Source of the DNA: Avibacterium volantium
GTDB lineage: Bacteria; Pseudomonadota; Gammaproteobacteria; Enterobacterales; Pasteurellaceae
Length of the DNA: 64,000 nt
Reading direction: 5' to 3'
Assembly (NCBI RefSeq): GCF_900635775.1
Contig: NZ_LR134167.1
Span: forward strand, 1,211,001-1,275,000
Position 1 is the stretch's first letter, and each line of letters begins with the position of its first letter. The position numbers and the translations under genes were made by a program. The notes beneath the pieces are model-generated. The model saw nothing but the letters and a program-made list of their open reading frames with translations. It was not told where the DNA came from and searched no databases. Of this stretch, positions 45,001 through 56,672 are shown in pieces.

Positions 45001-45279
45001 GTGATAATTTCATTTAATCATAAAGGGTTGGAAAAGTTCTATCGAACAGGTAATACATCTGGAATTATTGTAAATCATGCGAAAAAATTAGCAAGGATAC
45101 TAGATCAGCTAGACAGTGCTAAATTTCCTCAAGATATGAATATCCCCGGTTGGAATTTACATCCTCTCTCAGGTAATTTAGCTAATCATTGGAGCGTAAA
45201 AGTAAATGGGAATTGGCGAGTTACTTTTAGGTTGGAAAATGGTCATGCTGAAATTGTTGATTATCAAGATTATCACTAG
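45001..45279 (+). CDS. higB: HigB-type toxin (RelE superfamily mRNA interferase)
   Basis: 92 residues from GTG 45001, with GAGGATAA upstream. HigB markers: FNHKGLEKFYRTG at the N-terminus, LHPLSGNLANHWSVKVNGNW (about 53-72), then RVTFRLENGHAEIVDYQDYH at the end, which holds the RelE-fold catalytic residues. Ribosome-dependent mRNA cleavage is known for the family. The toxin-first order with antitoxin 6 bp downstream is the usual HigBA arrangement. Confidence 0.93.
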   Translation: MIISFNHKGLEKFYRTGNTSGIIVNHAKKLARILDQLDSAKFPQDMNIPGWNLHPLSGNLANHWSVKVNGNWRVTFRLENGHAEIVDYQDYH

Positions 45280-45285
45280 GAGATT

Positions 45286-45588
45286 ATGATGAATATGTAC
45301 TATCGCCCACATCCAGCAGAGGTCATTAAAGAGGATATTTTACCTGCACTAGGTTTAACTGTAACTGAGGCGGCGAAACAACTTGGGGTAAATAGAGTAA
45401 CCCTTTCTCGCTTGCTTAATGGAAAATCTTCTATTACGGCTGAAATGGCGCTTAGACTTCATATCTGGCTAGGAGAAAATAGCCCTACGCCAGAGAGTTG
45501 GCTACATAAGCAAGCAAATTATGATTTATGGGTCGCTGAGAGGAAAGGAACGAAATTCAATATTATTCCAGCCTATCAAACTATCTAA
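45286..45588 (+). CDS. higA: HigA-type antitoxin (XRE HTH)
   Basis: 100 residues from ATG 45286, with TAGGAG at 45277-45282 overlapping the toxin stop. The family opening is RPHPAEVIKEDILPALGLTV, and the HTH is TEAAKQLGVNRVTLSRLLNG (about 28-47). C-terminal LGENSPTPESWLHKQANYDLW is characteristic. It neutralises HigB and binds the palindrome at 44943-44961. Alternative starts 3 or 9 bp later cannot be excluded. Confidence 0.94.
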   Translation: MMNMYYRPHPAEVIKEDILPALGLTVTEAAKQLGVNRVTLSRLLNGKSSITAEMALRLHIWLGENSPTPESWLHKQANYDLWVAERKGTKFNIIPAYQTI

Positions 45589-47547: not shown

Positions 47548-48351
47548 TTATTCAAACACCGCCCAAATTGGCGCGTGATCGGAAGGTTTTTCCATCGCGC
47601 GAATATCCAACGCAATGCCTGTATCTGTGCAGCGTTCGATTAAATTATTGCTTGCCAAAATATGATCAATGCGTAAGCCGCGGTTATCATCAAAGCCTTT
47701 TGAGCGATAATCAAACCACGAGAATTTATCATTAACTGTCGGGTTTAAGTGGCGGAAAGTATCTGTTAAACCGTAGGCATATAAGCGGTTATACCATTCT
47801 CTTTCTTCAGGTAAGAACGAGCATTTTCCGGTACGCAACCAGCGTTTACGGCTTTCCTCACCAATGCCAATATCCAAATCACTCGGGCTGATATTCATAT
47901 CACCCATAATAATAATCGGATTGTCTTTATTGTGATCTTGCTCTAAATAGCGTTGCAAATCCGCATAGAATTTTTCTTTAGCAGGGAATTTTGTTTCGTG
48001 CTTGCGGCTTTCCCCTTGTGGAAAATAGCCGTTTATCACCGTGAGCAAACCAAATTCTGTTTCCATTTCCGCCATAATAATGCGTTTTTGTGCGTCCGCT
48101 TCATCTGTTGGGAAGCCTTTGTGAATAGCCTTTGGCGCTTGTTTCAATAAAAATGCCACGCCATAATGCCCTTTTTGCCCGTGGTGATAAACGTGATAAC
48201 CCAAGTGTTCCACCAACGCATAAGGGAAATCTTCATCTGCCACCTTTATTTCCTGCAATCCCAAAATATCGGGCTGATACTGTTCAATAATGGCTTCAAG
48301 CTGATGAGGTCTTGCTCGTAATCCATTGATATTAAAAGACATTACTTTCAT
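47548..48351 (-). CDS. xthA: Exodeoxyribonuclease III
   Basis: AP endonuclease and 3'-5' exonuclease of base-excision repair. 267 residues. Motifs: [16 protein letters not shown] at the start, [16 protein letters not shown] (about 28-43, metal Glu), [17 protein letters not shown] (about 106-122), [16 protein letters not shown] (about 147-162), [20 protein letters not shown] (about 211-230), and [11 protein letters not shown] at the end (catalytic His). Single gene. Confidence 0.97.
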
Positions 48352-48464
48352 TCAATACGTTCCTAATTGTTCATTTATAAAAATCAGACGGGCATTATAC
48401 TAAGGTTTGCAAGATTTCAAAAATGATAAAAAATTTCACCGTACTTTGTTTTGTCATTTATCTA

Positions 48465-48506
48465 TTGATTTATATCAGTAAATTGGCACACAAACTTCTT
48501 TATGAT
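48465..48506 (+). promoter_or_regulatory. FNR-dependent promoter of the LuxR/PBP regulator gene
   Basis: TTGAT-TTAT-ATCAG (48465-48478) matches the FNR palindrome TTGATNNNNATCAA at 9 of 10 fixed positions. A -10 element TATGAT lies at 48501-48506. With a start near 48513 the FNR centre (48471.5) is at about -41.5, the class II activator position. This indicates anaerobic activation of the downstream gene. Confidence 0.75.
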
Positions 48507-48539
48507 AATTCCATTTGCAAATAACAGATTAGGATAAAA

Positions 48540-50243
48540 ATGGAATTGACGCGGGCGTGCTTGGTTGATGAGCAAAAACAATTAATAGAGTGGGATAGTT
48601 GTGTAGGGAAAGCGTATTTTGAAATGCTGCCCCAGCTTATTGATTATGCTCAGGCTTTACTTTCTTCCAAGCGAGATAGCCTGTGTTTTTATTATCAAAC
48701 AGAAAATAATCAATGGCTTAATGTACGTTTACAACGTTATAAGCAGAGTTTTACCTTACTGACAGCCCAGCAAACTCAGTTGCCTTTTGAGCTGAGTAAG
48801 CGAGAAATTGAAATTCTCACCTTGCTCAGTAGTGGACTAAGCAATGTAGAAATTTCTCAACAGCTTTTTATTAGTGAACGTACTGTTGCCAAACACGTTG
48901 AGCATCTTTTTCAAAAAACAAAAATTGAAAATCGGACTAGCTTGGCGGTGTTTGCGGTAACTGAAAATCTGTGCTGTTTGCCAACGCCGGGTGATTTATC
49001 GCAATCTATTTTAGCAACGTATGAAATTGAAAGCCTTGCGAAAGGGGTAAAACTGCCGCAAAAAGCACCGCACTTTATTCATTCAACAATGACTTATCCA
49101 ATTACTATTGGCGTGCCTTATGTGGAACAAGGAATTGGTAAGCTAGATACGCAAGAATTATGCAACGGCTCACGATTAGCAGTGGAAATGATCAACCAAC
49201 AAGGTGGGATTAATGGGCGACAAGTGCGGTTAGAAACGGTAGGATTTTGCGTTGATGATCCGCAAAGTATCCATCAAGCATACCAACAATTATTAGATAA
49301 AGAAGTTGATGCGATTTCTGCGAGCTATGCCTGCTATTCTCCTGATTTACACGACTGGATTGCCAGTAAAGGGATTCCCTATATTCATCTTGCCACACAT
49401 AGTGATTTGGGCAAATCTCATCACAATCAGATAAAAAATATTTTTCAGGCGTGTGCCAGCGATATTAACTATGGGGCAGGGGTTGCACGTTTTATTCGAG
49501 CTTATCAATTCCATTATCCGCAAGTGATGAAAAATAAAAGGATTTTAGTGATTACAGTTAAATGGCAAAAAATCAATATAGGTATTGAAAATCTTATCTC
49601 TCAATTACGTCAGGAACATTGGCAGGTCGATGTTTTGACATTAGAAAAATCTCCACAAGTTTTTGATTATGCGATGAAACAAGTGTGCTATTTTGATCCC
49701 ACTTTAATCGTGTTTGCTTCTTATTTTGCGGAAGATATTTTGCAATTTTATCAATCTTTTATCCAAAATCCGATTAACGCGATTATTTATAGTATTTACG
49801 CACCTTCGGTATTTTTACCGCAAGAACAACAGTGTGAGGGCGTATTGTGGGCAAGTACCACAGGGCTGAGTATGACTTATGCAGGACGCAAATTTTGCCA
49901 AGATTATCAACGATTTTTTGATCATCAACCCAGTTATTCACAAGCGAGTGTCGCTTATGATCAAATTCAAATTCTTGCCAATGTTTGGCGACATAGCACT
50001 TCCCCAAGGGCGTTTAAAGAAGTCATTAATGGCATTCGTTCCTTAGCTTATACAGGGGTAAATGGCACTTACTATTTTGGTGGAGAAGTGCAAGCAGGGC
50101 TGACTTATCCTGATAACACCCAAGATCTTTCTATTAGCCAACCTCATTTACTTTTTCAGATTCAACAAGGAAAAAGCACGGTGATAGCACCTGACGTTTT
50201 TGCTGAATCTGTCTTTAAGTTGCCTCATTGGTTTCGGATTTAG
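48540..50243 (+). CDS. LuxR-type HTH fused to a type-1 periplasmic-binding-protein domain (one-component regulator)
   Basis: 567 residues without a signal peptide, so cytoplasmic. Residues 1-75 are a small unrecognised domain. The LuxR/GerE HTH is at about 84-140: LSKREIEILTLLSSGLSNVE, ISQQLFISERTVAKHVEHLF, then QKTKIENRTSL. From about 187 (YPITIGVPYVEQGIGKLDTQ) to the end runs a Leu/Ile/Val- or amide-binding-protein-like domain with GSRLAVEMINQQGGINGRQV (about 217-236) and AYDQIQILANVWR near 480. A binding-protein fold as intracellular sensor with a DNA-binding head is an uncommon arrangement. It directly precedes torY, in the same direction, and has an FNR-type promoter. It probably senses the substrate or a related small molecule; ligand and targets are inferred. 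Confidence 0.85.
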   Translation: MELTRACLVDEQKQLIEWDSCVGKAYFEMLPQLIDYAQALLSSKRDSLCFYYQTENNQWLNVRLQRYKQSFTLLTAQQTQLPFELSKREIEILTLLSSGLSNVEISQQLFISERTVAKHVEHLFQKTKIENRTSLAVFAVTENLCCLPTPGDLSQSILATYEIESLAKGVKLPQKAPHFIHSTMTYPITIGVPYVEQGIGKLDTQELCNGSRLAVEMINQQGGINGRQVRLETVGFCVDDPQSIHQAYQQLLDKEVDAISASYACYSPDLHDWIASKGIPYIHLATHSDLGKSHHNQIKNIFQACASDINYGAGVARFIRAYQFHYPQVMKNKRILVITVKWQKINIGIENLISQLRQEHWQVDVLTLEKSPQVFDYAMKQVCYFDPTLIVFASYFAEDILQFYQSFIQNPINAIIYSIYAPSVFLPQEQQCEGVLWASTTGLSMTYAGRKFCQDYQRFFDHQPSYSQASVAYDQIQILANVWRHSTSPRAFKEVINGIRSLAYTGVNGTYYFGGEVQAGLTYPDNTQDLSISQPHLLFQIQQGKSTVIAPDVFAESVFKLPHWFRI

Positions 50244-50272
50244 TTCCTTTCTTTTGCGATAAATCAAACTTT

Positions 50273-50309
50273 CTAATACTTATTAGGTAAATACGTAACT
50301 TTACGTATT
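50273..50309 (+). promoter_or_regulatory. Tandem palindromes upstream of torY (operator candidates)
   Basis: CTAATA-CT-TATTAG (50273-50286) and AATACGTAA-CT-TTACGTATT (50290-50309) are both perfect and share the CT centre. Their centres (50279.5 and 50299.5) are exactly 20 bp apart, about two helical turns. They would lie near -62 and -42 of the torY promoter. Likely binding sites for the LuxR-type regulator encoded just upstream (inference). Confidence 0.65.
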
Positions 50310-50335
50310 GAGATCCCCTATTCTAAATTTATAAT
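50308..50335 (+). promoter_or_regulatory. torY promoter
   Basis: TTGAGA (50308-50313), 16 bp, TATAAT (50330-50335). The -35 touches the right palindrome. The predicted start near 50342 leaves a leader of about 45 nt with GGGGGAG before ATG 50388. Confidence 0.7.
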
Positions 50336-50387
50336 CCCAACCATTATTTCTACCTATTTTGATGTATCTGTTTGATGTGGGGGAGCT

Positions 50388-51512
50388 ATGGCGAAATTGA
50401 ATAAGAAATTTGTATTAGGTGGTTTGTTTGGCATGTTGCTTGGTGTGGGCGTGTTTGCGGGAACGCAATATGCAATGAAAGCCACCAGCAGCACTGAATT
50501 TTGTGTGAGCTGCCATTCTATGGAAATTCCAAAGGAAGAATGGGAAGGAAGCGTACATTTTTCTAATCGCAAAGGTATTCGTGCGGAATGTGCAGATTGT
50601 CATATTCCGCAAGATTCCGCATTTCATTATGTGAAAACCAAGGTGATGGCGTTAAAAGATGTGTGGAATACTGTTGTGGTCGATAAATTGCCAGATCAAG
50701 AAGCCTATGAAACTCATCGTTTAGCAATGGCGAAACAGGTTTGGGCGGAGATGAAAGAAAACGATTCGGCTACTTGTAAAAGTTGTCATAGTGCTGAAGC
50801 AATGGTGCTTTCAGAGCAATCAGAAGCCGCGCAGAAAATGCATAAAATAGCACAGGAAACCAATCAAACGTGCATTGATTGCCATAAAGGCATTGTACAT
50901 TTTATGCCTGAAATGGACGTTGATAACCAAGAAGCCAGTGGTGAGTTAAGTAAACACGGTGGGGAGTTTAGCCCACAGGATAAAACCTTATATAGCCTCG
51001 CGATGAGTAATGTCAATATTGCTGATGGAGGCAGTATTCGCCTAATGCCTTATGCGGAATTAACCGATTGGAAAGCTTCGGGTGATCAAGTTTCAGCGAC
51101 GATCACAGGCTGGCAGCAAGCCGGGGCGGAAAGCATTCTTTATATGGATTTAGGTAAACGCATTATGGTGGCGTTATTGGAAGATGTGCCGCAAGATAAA
51201 ATGCAGGTGCTACGTTCTGTTTATGATGAAGTTACCGCTTCCGATTGGAAGGAAGTCCGTTTGCAAATTAATGCACCGAAATCTATTTTAACGGCAAATT
51301 TGACCGCACTTAATCAATTTGGTCACAATTTGAATGAAACCTATTGTAGCGGTTGCCACGCCGCAATTGGGGCAGATCATTACACCGCGAATCAATGGAT
51401 TGGTGTGGTGAACTCAATGAAAAATCGTACATCAATGTCAGCAGATGATGTCCGCACACTCACCATTTATTTACAACGTAATAGTAAGGATAAAGTGGGC
51501 GCATCACATTAA
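50388..51512 (+). CDS. torY: Pentahaem c-type cytochrome, TorY/TorC (NapC/NirT) family
   Basis: 374 residues. An N-terminal anchor (about 7-28, FVLGGLFGMLLGVGVFAGTQ), then five CXXCH haem sites: CVSCH and CADCH near 38 and 66, CKSCH near 129, CIDCH near 157, and CSGCH near 320. Four haems in the NapC-like part and one in a distal C-terminal domain is the TorC/TorY design. It takes electrons from menaquinol and passes them to the periplasmic reductase TorZ. The gap to torZ (248 bp) holds a Moco-riboswitch-like RNA, so the two genes may be expressed differently. Confidence 0.95.
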   Translation: MAKLNKKFVLGGLFGMLLGVGVFAGTQYAMKATSSTEFCVSCHSMEIPKEEWEGSVHFSNRKGIRAECADCHIPQDSAFHYVKTKVMALKDVWNTVVVDKLPDQEAYETHRLAMAKQVWAEMKENDSATCKSCHSAEAMVLSEQSEAAQKMHKIAQETNQTCIDCHKGIVHFMPEMDVDNQEASGELSKHGGEFSPQDKTLYSLAMSNVNIADGGSIRLMPYAELTDWKASGDQVSATITGWQQAGAESILYMDLGKRIMVALLEDVPQDKMQVLRSVYDEVTASDWKEVRLQINAPKSILTANLTALNQFGHNLNETYCSGCHAAIGADHYTANQWIGVVNSMKNRTSMSADDVRTLTIYLQRNSKDKVGASH

Positions 51513-51760: not shown

Positions 51761-54232
51761 ATGAAAAAACAAGACAACATTAATGCAAGTCGCCGTGATT
51801 TCATTAAACATTCTTCATTAGGTCTTGCAGGAACATCTTTATCAGGTGGGGTAGTAGGATCGTTGGTATCTTCTAAAGCAGTGGCGGCAGAACAAAGTAC
51901 GGTGGTTACTGCGGCACACTGGGGGCCTTTAGGCGTAGTTGTGGAAGACGGTAAAGTGGTGAAGTCAGGCCCTGCGATTCCCGCACCTTTAACCAATGAA
52001 TTGCAATCTGTGGTTGCCGATCAGCTTTATAGCGAAACCCGTGTTAAATATCCAATGGTGCGTAAAGGCTATTTAGAAGGTAATAAAGATACCAGCTTGC
52101 GTGGACGTGATGAATGGGTGCGCGTATCTTGGGAGCAGGCGTTTGATCTTGTGGCAAAAGAGATAAAACGGGTGAGAGATAGCTATGGTGCAACAGGGAT
52201 CTATGCTGGCTCTTATGGCTGGTACAGCTCAGGCTCACTACACGCAGCACGTACCTTGCTACATCGTTACCTTAACGTAACGGGTGGTTTTGTTGGCTCA
52301 AAAGGGGATTATTCTACCGGGGCTGCACAAGTGATTATGCCGCACGTTTTAGGCACAATTGAAGTTTATGAGCAACAAACCAGCTGGGAAACCATTTTAG
52401 AAAGTTCAGAGATTGTTGTGTTATGGTCGGCAAATCCACTCACAACCTTACGCATTGCGTGGACATCTACGGATCAAGAGGGCTTAGCCTATTTCAAAAA
52501 ATTAAAAGAGAGCGGCAAACGCATTATCTGTATTGATCCTGTGCGTAGCGAAAGTTGCGAATTTTTAGGTGCTGAGTGGATCCCGATTAATACAGCAACT
52601 GACGTGCCACTAATGCTAGGGATTGCACATACCTTAGTGAGCGAAGACAAGCACGACAAAGCCTTCTTGAAAAAATACACCTCAGGCTACGATAAATTTG
52701 AAGAATATTTATTAGGCAAAACAGATGGGCAGCCAAAAGATGCCACTTGGGCAAGCAAATTAACTGGCGTACCAGTAGAGGTGATTAAGCAACTTGCCAA
52801 TGATTTTGTGACTAAACGCACAATGTTAATGGGCGGTTGGGGAATGCAACGCCAACGCCACGGTGAGCAAAGCCACTGGATGATGGTCACGCTAGCTTCT
52901 ATGCTTGGACAAATTGGTTTACCGGGCGGCGGCTTCGGCTTTAGTTATCACTATGCCAATGGTGGTGTGCCAACTGCAACAGGCGGAATTTTAGGTTCGA
53001 TCACCGCAAATCCAGCCGTACAAGCAGGGGAAAAAACGTGGCTTGATGAAACATCTAAAATGGCATTTCCTGTGGCACGGGTGGCAGATGCTTTACTTAA
53101 CCCCGGCAAAACGATTCAATATAATGGCACGGAAATTACCTATCCCGATATTAAATTAGTTTATTGGGCAGGTGGTAATCCATTTGTACATCATCAAGAT
53201 ACCAATACCTTAGTGAAAGCCTTCCATAAGCCAGATACCTTTATTGTGAATGAAGTAAACTGGACTCCAACGGCACGAATGGCTGATATTGTATTGCCTG
53301 TAACCACAAGTTATGAGCGTAACGACTTAACAATGTCAGGCGATTATTCAATGATGAATATCTACCCAATGAAACAAGTTGTGCCACCGCAATTTGAAGC
53401 GAAAAGTGATTATGACATCTTCACCGAATTAGCCAAGCGTGCTGGTGTGGAAGAACAATTCACCGAAAATAAATCGGAAATGGATTGGTTAAAAGGTTTC
53501 TACCAAACGGCATTTGATGCGGCACGTAAAAACCGTGTATTAATGCCTAAATTCGAGAAATTCTGGGAAGAAAATAAACCGATTACTTTCAAAGCCAATG
53601 AAAAAGCGAAAAAATGGGTGCGTTATGAAGAGTTCCGCAATGATCCGTTGTTGAATCCATTGGGTACACCATCAGGTAAAATTGAAATTTATTCTGATGT
53701 GGTAGCCAAAATGAATTATGACGATTGCAAAGGCTATCCAAGCTGGATGGAACCGGCAGAATTTGCTGGCAACACCACAGCAGAAGCACCTTTAGCTTTA
53801 GTTACGCCACACCCATATTATCGTTTGCACAGCCAGCTTGCACATACTTCATTACGTCAAAAATATGCCGTGAATGATCGCGAGCCAGTGTTGATTCATA
53901 AAGATGATGCGGCAACGCGTGGTATTGTTGATGGTGATATTGTGCGAATTTTCAATTCTCGCGGACAAGTGCTTGCCGGGGCTGTGGTTACTGATGGCAT
54001 TATCAAAGGCACGGTCGCCTTGCACGAAGGGGCTTGGTATGATCCTGCGAATCTTGGACAATCGGATAAACCATTGTGTAAAAATGGCTGCCCGAATGTG
54101 CTTACTCGCGATGAAGGCACGTCAAAACTTGCACAGGGTAACTCGCCAAATACTTGTATCGTACAAGTAGAAAAATTCACTGGCGAAGCACCAGCCGTAA
54201 CGGTGTTTAAACAACCGAAACAATCGGCGTAA
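51761..54232 (+). CDS. torZ: Periplasmic molybdoenzyme reductase TorZ/MtsZ type (S-/N-oxide reductase)
   Basis: 823 residues, DMSO-reductase family. Twin-arginine signal: NASRRDFIKHSSLGLAGTSL (about 8-27). No iron-sulfur cysteines, as in TorA/BisC/DorA enzymes. The Moco ligand serine and its surroundings are in GDYSTGAAQVIMPHVLGTIE (about 184-203). Other pterin contacts: WSANPLTTLRIAW, CIDPVRSE, GGWGMQRQRHGEQSHWMM (about 366-383) and NEVNWTPTARMADIVLPVTT. Known substrates of the H. influenzae protein include methionine sulfoxide and biotin/N-oxides; the substrate here is inferred. It pairs with TorY and is probably controlled by the Moco-type RNA upstream. Confidence 0.95.
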   Translation: MKKQDNINASRRDFIKHSSLGLAGTSLSGGVVGSLVSSKAVAAEQSTVVTAAHWGPLGVVVEDGKVVKSGPAIPAPLTNELQSVVADQLYSETRVKYPMVRKGYLEGNKDTSLRGRDEWVRVSWEQAFDLVAKEIKRVRDSYGATGIYAGSYGWYSSGSLHAARTLLHRYLNVTGGFVGSKGDYSTGAAQVIMPHVLGTIEVYEQQTSWETILESSEIVVLWSANPLTTLRIAWTSTDQEGLAYFKKLKESGKRIICIDPVRSESCEFLGAEWIPINTATDVPLMLGIAHTLVSEDKHDKAFLKKYTSGYDKFEEYLLGKTDGQPKDATWASKLTGVPVEVIKQLANDFVTKRTMLMGGWGMQRQRHGEQSHWMMVTLASMLGQIGLPGGGFGFSYHYANGGVPTATGGILGSITANPAVQAGEKTWLDETSKMAFPVARVADALLNPGKTIQYNGTEITYPDIKLVYWAGGNPFVHHQDTNTLVKAFHKPDTFIVNEVNWTPTARMADIVLPVTTSYERNDLTMSGDYSMMNIYPMKQVVPPQFEAKSDYDIFTELAKRAGVEEQFTENKSEMDWLKGFYQTAFDAARKNRVLMPKFEKFWEENKPITFKANEKAKKWVRYEEFRNDPLLNPLGTPSGKIEIYSDVVAKMNYDDCKGYPSWMEPAEFAGNTTAEAPLALVTPHPYYRLHSQLAHTSLRQKYAVNDREPVLIHKDDAATRGIVDGDIVRIFNSRGQVLAGAVVTDGIIKGTVALHEGAWYDPANLGQSDKPLCKNGCPNVLTRDEGTSKLAQGNSPNTCIVQVEKFTGEAPAVTVFKQPKQSA

Positions 54233-55519: not shown

Positions 55520-55807
55520 ATGTCATTCAAATTTAACGCTGAAGTGCGTACAGCGCAAGGTAAGGGTGCGAGCCGCCGCCTGCGTCATAATGGTCAAATT
55601 CCTGCAATCGTTTATGGTGGGAATGCAGAACCTGTTTCAATCATCTTAAACCACGATGAATTAAACAACGCTCAAGTACACGATTCTTTCTATTCAGACG
55701 TGATCACTTTAGTGATTGATGGTAAAGAAGTGGCTGTGAAAGTACAAGCAATGCAACGCCACCCATTCAAACCAAAATTAGTTCACATCGACTTCAAACG
55801 CGTTTAA
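55520..55807 (+). CDS. rplY: 50S ribosomal protein L25
   Basis: 95 residues, the short form without a CTC-type extension. Binds loop E of 5S rRNA. Opens [20 protein letters not shown], continuing [20 protein letters not shown] (about 24-43), and ends [21 protein letters not shown] (in two parts, about 75-95). GAGAATACAATT precedes the ATG. Its terminator stem (AAAAAAGCACC) is split from its partner by IS copy 2. Confidence 0.97.
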
Positions 55808-55876: not shown

Positions 55877-56672
55877 TTAATTCAAGGACTGAGTTCTGTA
55901 TTCCACAGGGCTTAGTCCTTTGAGCTTCACTTGAATACGCTCATTGTTGTAGTAATGAATGTACTCGTGAATCACTTTTTCAAGCTGTTCAAAGGTTTTA
56001 AACCGCTTGCCAAAGTAACATTCCGTCTTCAATCGCCCGAAAAAGCTTTCCATCGCACCATTATCAAGGCAATTGCCTTTTCTCGACATACTTTGCGTAA
56101 TACCGTGTTTTTTCAATATCTCCTGATAACCCATCATTTGATACTGCCACCCTTGGTCGGAATGCAGTATCGGTTTTTCCCCCCGCTAATCGGTTCACCG
56201 CTTGGGTCAACATTCTGGTTATCTGCTCAAAATTCGGACTTCTCGCCACATCATAAGCAATAATTTCGTTATTAAACAAGTCTTTAATCGGCGATAAATA
56301 CACTTTGCCTTCCGCACATTTGAACTCGGTGATATCCGTTACCCACTTCTCATTCGGCATCGTTGCCGTAAAATCCCGTTGCAACAGATTATCGGCAGTG
56401 TGTCCCACTTTGCCTTGGTAAGAACAATATTTTTTCTGCTTACTTTTTCCTTTTAACCCCAAACGTTGCATTATCGCTTGCACCCTTTTGTGGTTGATAA
56501 TCAAGTATTTCCTTAATTCCAAGGTAATTCGACGATAACCATAATTTTCGTCATTTTTGCGATAAATTTCCTCTATTTTCTGTGAAATCGCTACATTTTT
56601 ATCCGACTTTGGCTTGAGATGATAAAAGAACGAACTGCGTGCCAATCCGATTAGCCTGAGTAACAATTCCAA
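55877..56672 (-). pseudogene. IS copy 2 OrfB, broken by a G-tract insertion
   Basis: Same protein as 36189-36983. Reading runs normally to [11 protein letters not shown], then shifts because the complement of 56179-56184 has six Gs where copy 1 has five. The second half ([20 protein letters not shown] onward) is in another frame. The second Asp of the DDE triad lies right at the shift, so no active enzyme is expected. Substitutions relative to copy 1 include R-to-C in KKYCSYQGKVG and Q-I to H-T shortly after. Confidence 0.9.

Follow-up and report, generated by a model that had tools for sequence, protein, structure and literature searches.

The gene upstream of torY in Avibacterium volantium encodes a 567-residue protein in which a LuxR/NarL-type DNA-binding domain is joined, in one chain, to a receptor domain of the kind used by transporters. 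Sequence comparison makes it quite likely that this protein is a cytoplasmic one-component activator dedicated to torYZ, which would bind a small ligand through its HAAT/AmiC-like domain and act in class II fashion at about −42 together with FNR. The features discussed below lie in a window of 64,000 nucleotides (contig NZ_LR134167.1), with the following coordinates.

48540–50243, plus strand: gene for the one-component regulator, 567 aa (PAS-like part, residues ~1–80; LuxR/NarL-type HTH, 85–139; HAAT/AmiC-type domain, 187–567)
48792–48956, plus strand: coding DNA of the GerE/LuxR HTH (residues 85–139), Pfam E 1.4e-17, recognition-helix motif RTVAKH
49098–50240, plus strand: coding DNA of the binding-protein domain (residues 187–567), Peripla_BP_6 match
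50254–50267, plus strand: FNR-like site TTGCGATAAATCAA, 8/10, centred at about −82
50273–50286: left palindrome CTAATACTTATTAG (CTAATA-CT-TATTAG), 6-bp arms, centre 50279.5, probably incidental
50290–50309: right palindrome AATACGTAACTTTACGTATT, the putative operator, centred at about −42 of torY
50308–50335, plus strand: predicted torY promoter, TTGAGA-N16-TATAAT, 11/12 consensus letters
50388–51512, plus strand: torY (mtsY-like), multihaem cytochrome, proposed target; Pfam Cytochrom_NNT, TIGR02162 (torC) 323.9 bits, below the cutoff of 478.2
51761–54232, plus strand: torZ (mtsZ-like), molybdopterin S/N-oxide reductase, proposed target; TIGR00509 above cutoff

A LuxR-type HTH fused to a transporter-type receptor

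Pfam assigned GerE (PF00196) to residues 85–139 (63.5 bits against a cutoff of 23.5) and Peripla_BP_6 to residues 187–515 (E 1.3e-16, above cutoff), in agreement with the initial annotation, which had read an HTH at about 84–140 and a binding-protein domain after about 187 from the translated sequence. The structure model of the HTH is confident and resembles NarL-type domains. For residues 187–567, fold comparison returned an AmiC-like fold, so that family search and structure comparison together describe a HAAT/AmiC-type domain. The N-terminus is less distinct: residues 1–84 gave no useful Pfam match, with no PAS match at E ≤ 10, and in the predicted model the order of strands and helices and an alignment with VqmA (rmsd 6.4) fit a PAS domain over residues ~1–80. 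Neither a receiver domain (Response_reg) nor a LacI-type HTH was matched in Pfam at E ≤ 0.1. As had been claimed at the outset, the protein has no export signal by hydropathy: nothing in it resembles a signal peptide or membrane segment, the highest 19-mer mean being 1.03 overall and 0.53 for 19-mers that start within residues 1–30. In the window no ABC permease or ATPase gene adjoins the regulator, its neighbours being exonuclease III, acyl-CoA thioesterase, torY and torZ.

Several public records label homologues “amino acid ABC transporter”, and on that reading the protein would bind substrate for a transporter, its HTH-like stretch being incidental. We see practically no chance of this, given the missing signal-peptide-like segment, the strength of the GerE match, the confident HTH model and the link to an operator described below. 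Transporter-protein names for family members are accordingly misleading.

Elsewhere in the window, a HigB-like toxin gene (PF05015) is followed by an HTH_3 antitoxin-like gene (45001–45588), and a short integrase-core ORF on the minus strand (rve_2, rve_3; 55877–56137), an apparent transposase remnant, lies just after the gene at 55520–55807.

The torY promoter region

Two perfect palindromes sharing a CT centre had been reported 20 bp apart at about −62 and −42 of a good torY promoter. Both are present. The right one reads AATACGTAA-CT-TTACGTATT, with 9-bp arms and its centre at 50299.5, exactly 20 bp from that of the left one; the positions of about −62 (left) and −42 (right) assume a transcript start 7 nt after the −10 box. 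The promoter is there too, although its match is weak on its own, because 0.6 such sites arise per shuffle. There are 32 gap-2 palindromes with arms of at least 6 bp in the window; the right palindrome alone among them reaches 9-bp arms, and the left and right palindromes form the sole gap-2 pair with centres within 30 bp of each other. Of the two, only the right one stands beyond chance, the size of the left one being frequent in the window. A search of 48300–50500 for an RNA element gave no Rfam match at gathering score.

The putative operator follows the regulator across Pasteurellaceae

The regulator is carried by 18 of 140 Pasteurellaceae genomes. Among the torY matches listed, 79 upstream sequences were compared, 17 from genomes with the regulator and 62 from genomes without it; four partial or broken torY matches (G070, G130, G044 and G014) were dropped beforehand, and TorC paralogues (31–37% identity) and NapC-like matches (40–43%) were set aside as members of other families. 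The best match to AATACGYAANNTTRCGTATT upstream of torY scored 15–18 of 18 in all 17 regulator-carrying genomes and at most 14 in all 62 others (Fisher p 1e-17, nominal because the genomes are related and kinship was ignored). Thirty single-base shuffles per promoter topped out at 13–16, with occasional shuffles reaching 15–16. Because the full motif had been derived from the same regulator-carrying promoters that were then scored, the core ATACG-N8-CGTAT was also tested alone: it matched at 9/10 or better in 15/17 promoters with the regulator and in 0/62 listed torY promoters without it (p 2.5e-14, nominal for the same reason), a comparison that lessens the circularity and does not remove it, since the alphaproteobacterial sites were picked for their resemblance.

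Fourteen of the 140 genomes contain the exact 20-base pattern, each a single time and always at torY (14/18 with the regulator, 0/122 without). A looser pattern, applied to the 17 regulator-carrying genomes with torY, found the torY site in 15 and none in G090 and G093, with one additional site in G048, before the unlinked regulator. By the strict patterns, comparison shows a single predicted operator per genome, at torY. A quick tree built from the 30 best torY proteins has regulator and operator states change jointly at least six times, with at least four of these changes forced by well supported branches. In G024 and G025, of the same genus and with torY proteins 99% identical, there is neither a regulator match nor an operator, and the −10 box and a 7-of-10 FNR-like site are kept.

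In 15 of the 18 genomes that carry it, the regulator shares its strand with torY and ends no more than 400 bp before it. The gap is about 2 kb in G083, and torY is on another contig in G048; in both, the operator stays with torY though the regulator is displaced. A further Avibacterium genome (G026; L019, L004) has a regulator with 11 in-frame stops and no torY orthologue that we could find, so here regulator and target appear to have been lost together. In one genome (G115, L033) the regulator frame breaks near the C-terminus, the match ending at residue 493; this genome has an open torY frame and the operator. Together these comparisons make a strong case that the right palindrome acts as the regulator's operator, and they back the initial proposal of a one-component regulator with a recruited transporter-type receptor.

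The left palindrome fared differently. It is perfect in only 1 of the 17 regulator-associated torY promoters, that of Avibacterium volantium itself, and one base off in G023, leaving the suggested dimeric activator on two sites 20 bp apart unsupported; conservation with the gene across Pasteurellaceae holds for the right palindrome only. Five of the seven Mannheimia-group (g28) genomes (G089, G091, G092, G094 and G095; L056, L058, L055, L048 and L050) have another inverted repeat, AACTC-N4-GAGTT, whose centre lies 17 bp upstream of the operator, and three of these promoters hold a second copy 23 bp downstream. These repeats differ in sequence from the left palindrome and do not match the operator.

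NarP sites are likewise 7-2-7 inverted heptamers, with the half-site TACYYMT, and a NarP-like protein is present in the Avibacterium volantium genome. NarP is the most plausible other owner of the palindrome. Fnr, ArcA and NarP sites have been predicted upstream of torYZ in three Pasteurellaceae (excerpt of Ravcheev 2007, PMC1805755). The distribution speaks strongly against it. A NarP-model match at E ≤ 1e-60 was found in 117/140 genomes (none above the curated cutoff), is absent from G031, G048, G049, G054 and G083, all of which carry the operator, and is present in 60 of the 62 listed torY-carrying genomes without the regulator, which nevertheless have no operator. The palindrome core also recurs in alphaproteobacteria, adjoining a related regulator. 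We regard ownership by another regulator as very improbable and rejected NarP.

Promoter geometry suggests a probable activator

The spacing around the operator is nearly fixed. A −10-like hexamer starts 20–22 bp past it in 17/17 promoters, with at least 5/6 consensus letters in 16, and an FNR-like site (at least 8/10) lies upstream, centre to centre, at 39/40 bp in 12/17 and at 49/50 bp in 4/17, giving two spacing classes one helical turn apart; only in G054 was no site found at either distance. Shuffled stretches reached an FNR-like score of at least 8 in 224/3400 trials. Among the listed torY promoters without the regulator, 59/62 hold an FNR-like site of at least 8/10 within 250 bp, a span so wide that chance matches are expected. 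The FNR-like site is a more widely kept partner of the operator than any second palindrome. Placing the operator at about −42 and FNR at about −82 or −92 corresponds to class II plus class I activation, and activation in concert with FNR appears likely from this arrangement. FNR control of mtsZ has been reported in Haemophilus influenzae (excerpt of PMC12345214).

The first two bases of the −35 hexamer (50308–50309) fall within the operator, which would also suit a repressor whose unliganded form blocks the −35 region until ligand releases it. The 20–22 bp spacing to the −10 box and the FNR-like site in positions one turn apart instead match a class II activator that has a co-activator bound upstream, and we judge repression unlikely; G024 and G025, which lack regulator and operator, fit either mode. 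For the activator, we infer DNA binding, dimerisation and ligand binding, the ligand perhaps being an S-/N-oxide or a linked metabolite, methionine sulfoxide for example. The C-terminal type-1 (HAAT/AmiC-like) domain would bind a small ligand in the cytoplasm, and its closure would alter the dimer that the PAS-like and LuxR-HTH parts form. This dimer would bind the 20-bp inverted repeat at about −42 and recruit RNA polymerase as a class II activator, with FNR 39/40 or 49/50 bp further upstream, and torYZ would be switched on when oxygen is low and ligand present.

Gene neighbourhoods and second copies

Two genomes, G049 and G054, contain a second regulator copy, which precedes torC-torA-torD (loci L005, L006, L034 and L035); TorA of this operon scores above the TIGR02164 cutoff (families were tested on L005, matching G054). 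The second copy in L005 has the recognition helix ERTIEKH, with E in place of A, and that of L006/L035 has one in-frame stop. The torC promoters beside the second copies keep the left half-site AATACGTA alone, and the AATACG half-site present before torCAD in G049 and G054 is missing ahead of torC in G048, which has no second copy. Operator-like sites also stand before the regulator in L008 and L013 (15/18) and before the second copy in L006 (9/10 core). General autoregulation was considered and set aside because seven other loci checked have no such site.

In Bibersteinia trehalosi, genes for MesX (PF08908) and a MesD-like methionine synthase (NF006589) are inserted between torY and torZ (L011:11289–13362), and torZ, thus split from torY, has its own operator-like site (L011:13496, score 16). 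MesD and MesX (DUF1852) make methionine without methyl-folate or cobalamin (excerpt of PMC7857596). Their presence within torYZ is a faint hint at methionine sulfoxide. A MoaA-like molybdenum-cofactor gene lies divergently upstream of the regulator in several genomes (L010:6645–7667, matching Mob_synth_C and Radical_SAM; by eye, similar ORFs in L007, L008, L009, L012 and L013), and it directly adjoins the regulator in L008, L009, L010 and L013. TorZ is itself a molybdenum enzyme.

A small family spanning two classes

A first protein search returned 49 proteins (clusters) at E ≤ 1e-3. An alignment search at E ≤ 1e-5 gave 63, comprising 49 family members (three covering at most 65% of the query) and 14 proteins that match the HTH alone. 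By these searches the regulator belongs to a small family, whose named members come from Pasteurellaceae (Avibacterium, Glaesserella, Mannheimia, Bibersteinia and Cricetibacter) and alphaproteobacteria (Rhizobium and Paracoccus; also Agrobacterium). In wider sampling, profile A1 matched four genomes among 394 from the order, each of them from Pasteurellaceae, and among 398 from the phylum only that of Avibacterium volantium; scoring took in at most three first-look candidates from each genome, and some members may have been missed. The regulator tree separates the Pasteurellaceae and alphaproteobacterial groups (100/100), with long-branch warnings for some rows; the broken copies (L004, L019, L006 and L035) and a duplicate (L001) were omitted from it, and L033 was kept. 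HTH residues 112–126 are 60–100% identical to the window protein in 18 relatives. The recognition-helix stretch is 67–80% identical between the window protein and five alpha-group sequences (two from Rhizobium and Paracoccus, three placed alongside by the tree), against 36–42% for the whole proteins.

The DNA site is conserved as well. Exact ATACG-N8-CGTAT, expected ~0.01 times per locus, is found in Rhizobium (L014, L016) and Agrobacterium (L150), just before an operon of a carbon-nitrogen hydrolase, a PuuE-like deacetylase and the regulator; the families were tested on L014, and the names for L150 are those of its annotation. The site is one base longer in two Paracoccus pantotrophus loci whose regulator is fragmented, and there it precedes an unannotated stretch whose start resembles, by eye, the same hydrolase.

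At loci L150, L151 and L152, on plasmids, the alphaproteobacterial relatives lie near hydantoinase/oxoprolinase genes, the Paracoccus pantotrophus copies being annotated in fragments; in L150 (Agrobacterium) carbon-nitrogen hydrolase, deacetylase and PucR-type regulator genes are also nearby. No ABC transporter parts are annotated near the regulator in L150–L152. The genes for a peptide-type ABC transporter, which has an SBP_bac_5 protein of its own, begin ~1.8 kb downstream in Rhizobium (L014), past an opposite-strand ORF and another ORF.

The initial annotation had counted homologues placed consistently away from torYZ with other conserved targets against its proposal. The alphaproteobacterial relatives, at an amide-type operon, are in part such a case; the link to torYZ stands in Pasteurellaceae.

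The nature of the ligand

Haemophilus influenzae MtsZ has lower KM values for DMSO and methionine sulfoxide than for TMAO (excerpt of PMC5122715), which makes these two the first ligand candidates. An S-/N-oxide remains a plausible ligand; the original suggestion of one is weakened because the alphaproteobacterial relatives keep nearly the same operator before a hydrolase/deacetylase operon. The receptor domain argues in the same direction: its pocket-type loops, chosen from general HAAT anatomy and not from coordinates, are nearly unchanged between 41 Pasteurellaceae-group and 4 alpha-group sequences, and the located relatives of the latter sit beside amide-hydrolysis genes. The second A1 protein search, which reaches only proteins sharing short words, turned up no free-standing transporter-type relative from which the ligand could be named.

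The regulator might then control torYZ and yet share its ligand class with the alphaproteobacterial relatives, sensing an amide, cyclic amide or amino-acid-like compound, and to this we give a little under an even chance. Besides the shared loops, the fold neighbours of the receptor domain bind amides, urea, branched-chain amino acids and L-pyroglutamate, and the genes around the regulator encode hydantoinase/oxoprolinase in Agrobacterium and Paracoccus and an amidase and deacetylase in Agrobacterium and Rhizobium. Such a ligand sits less well with the presence in G049 and G054 of separate regulator copies for two different S-/N-oxide reductase operons, torYZ and torCAD, with the strict patterns, which gave no site except at torY or before the regulator, and with several loop positions that do differ between the groups (H287, K292, Y395, I400 and Q475). 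A wider reading, which we hold tentatively and find somewhat less probable than the amide one, is that of an undescribed one-component family whose cytoplasmic receptor senses S-/N-oxides or free methionine sulfoxide, with an operator near-fixed from alpha- to gammaproteobacteria and targets exchanged: amide hydrolysis in the one, torYZ and then, after duplication, torCAD in the other. If true, this would be regulator rewiring with an unchanged DNA code.

Discussion

Each module of the proposed torYZ activator is already known. AmiC of Pseudomonas aeruginosa, titled an amide receptor/negative regulator in the PDB, is a separate protein that works through the antiterminator AmiR, whereas here receptor and DNA-binding domain share one chain. 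The PAS-LuxR one-component regulator VqmA is shorter (~217–227 residues), senses DPO and has no C-terminal binding-protein domain, judging from PDB titles and lengths. NarL and NarP share with our protein the NarL-type HTH and a 7-2-7-like inverted repeat; they differ in that no receiver domain is found here, in the half-site (TACGYAA against TACYYMT) and in distribution. The sugar regulators LacI/GalR, XylR (AraC) and AraR (GntR) also combine an HTH and a periplasmic-binding-protein fold in one chain, with other HTH families and sugar-type receptors in place of GerE and a HAAT receptor. Escherichia coli torCAD is controlled by the TorS/TorT/TorR phosphorelay, whose periplasmic sensor has a binding-protein fold; it likewise ties such a sensor to an S-/N-oxide reductase operon, where the protein described here is single and without an export signal. 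In the literature searched we found no description of this regulator type, and neither the combination nor its dedicated operator, its tie to S-/N-oxide reductases or its change of targets between classes; the search covered open literature, from which most subscription journals are absent.

With its transport-type amino-acid/amide receptor joined to a LuxR HTH, the protein is likely to be a direct DNA-binding switch. The near-identical operator before unrelated operons in Rhizobium/Agrobacterium and in Pasteurellaceae offers a clean natural case of regulator reassignment. For Pasteurellaceae, the protein is a candidate substrate-responsive regulator of torYZ/mtsYZ, beside FNR (excerpt of PMC12345214) and the predicted Fnr, ArcA and NarP inputs (excerpt of PMC1805755).
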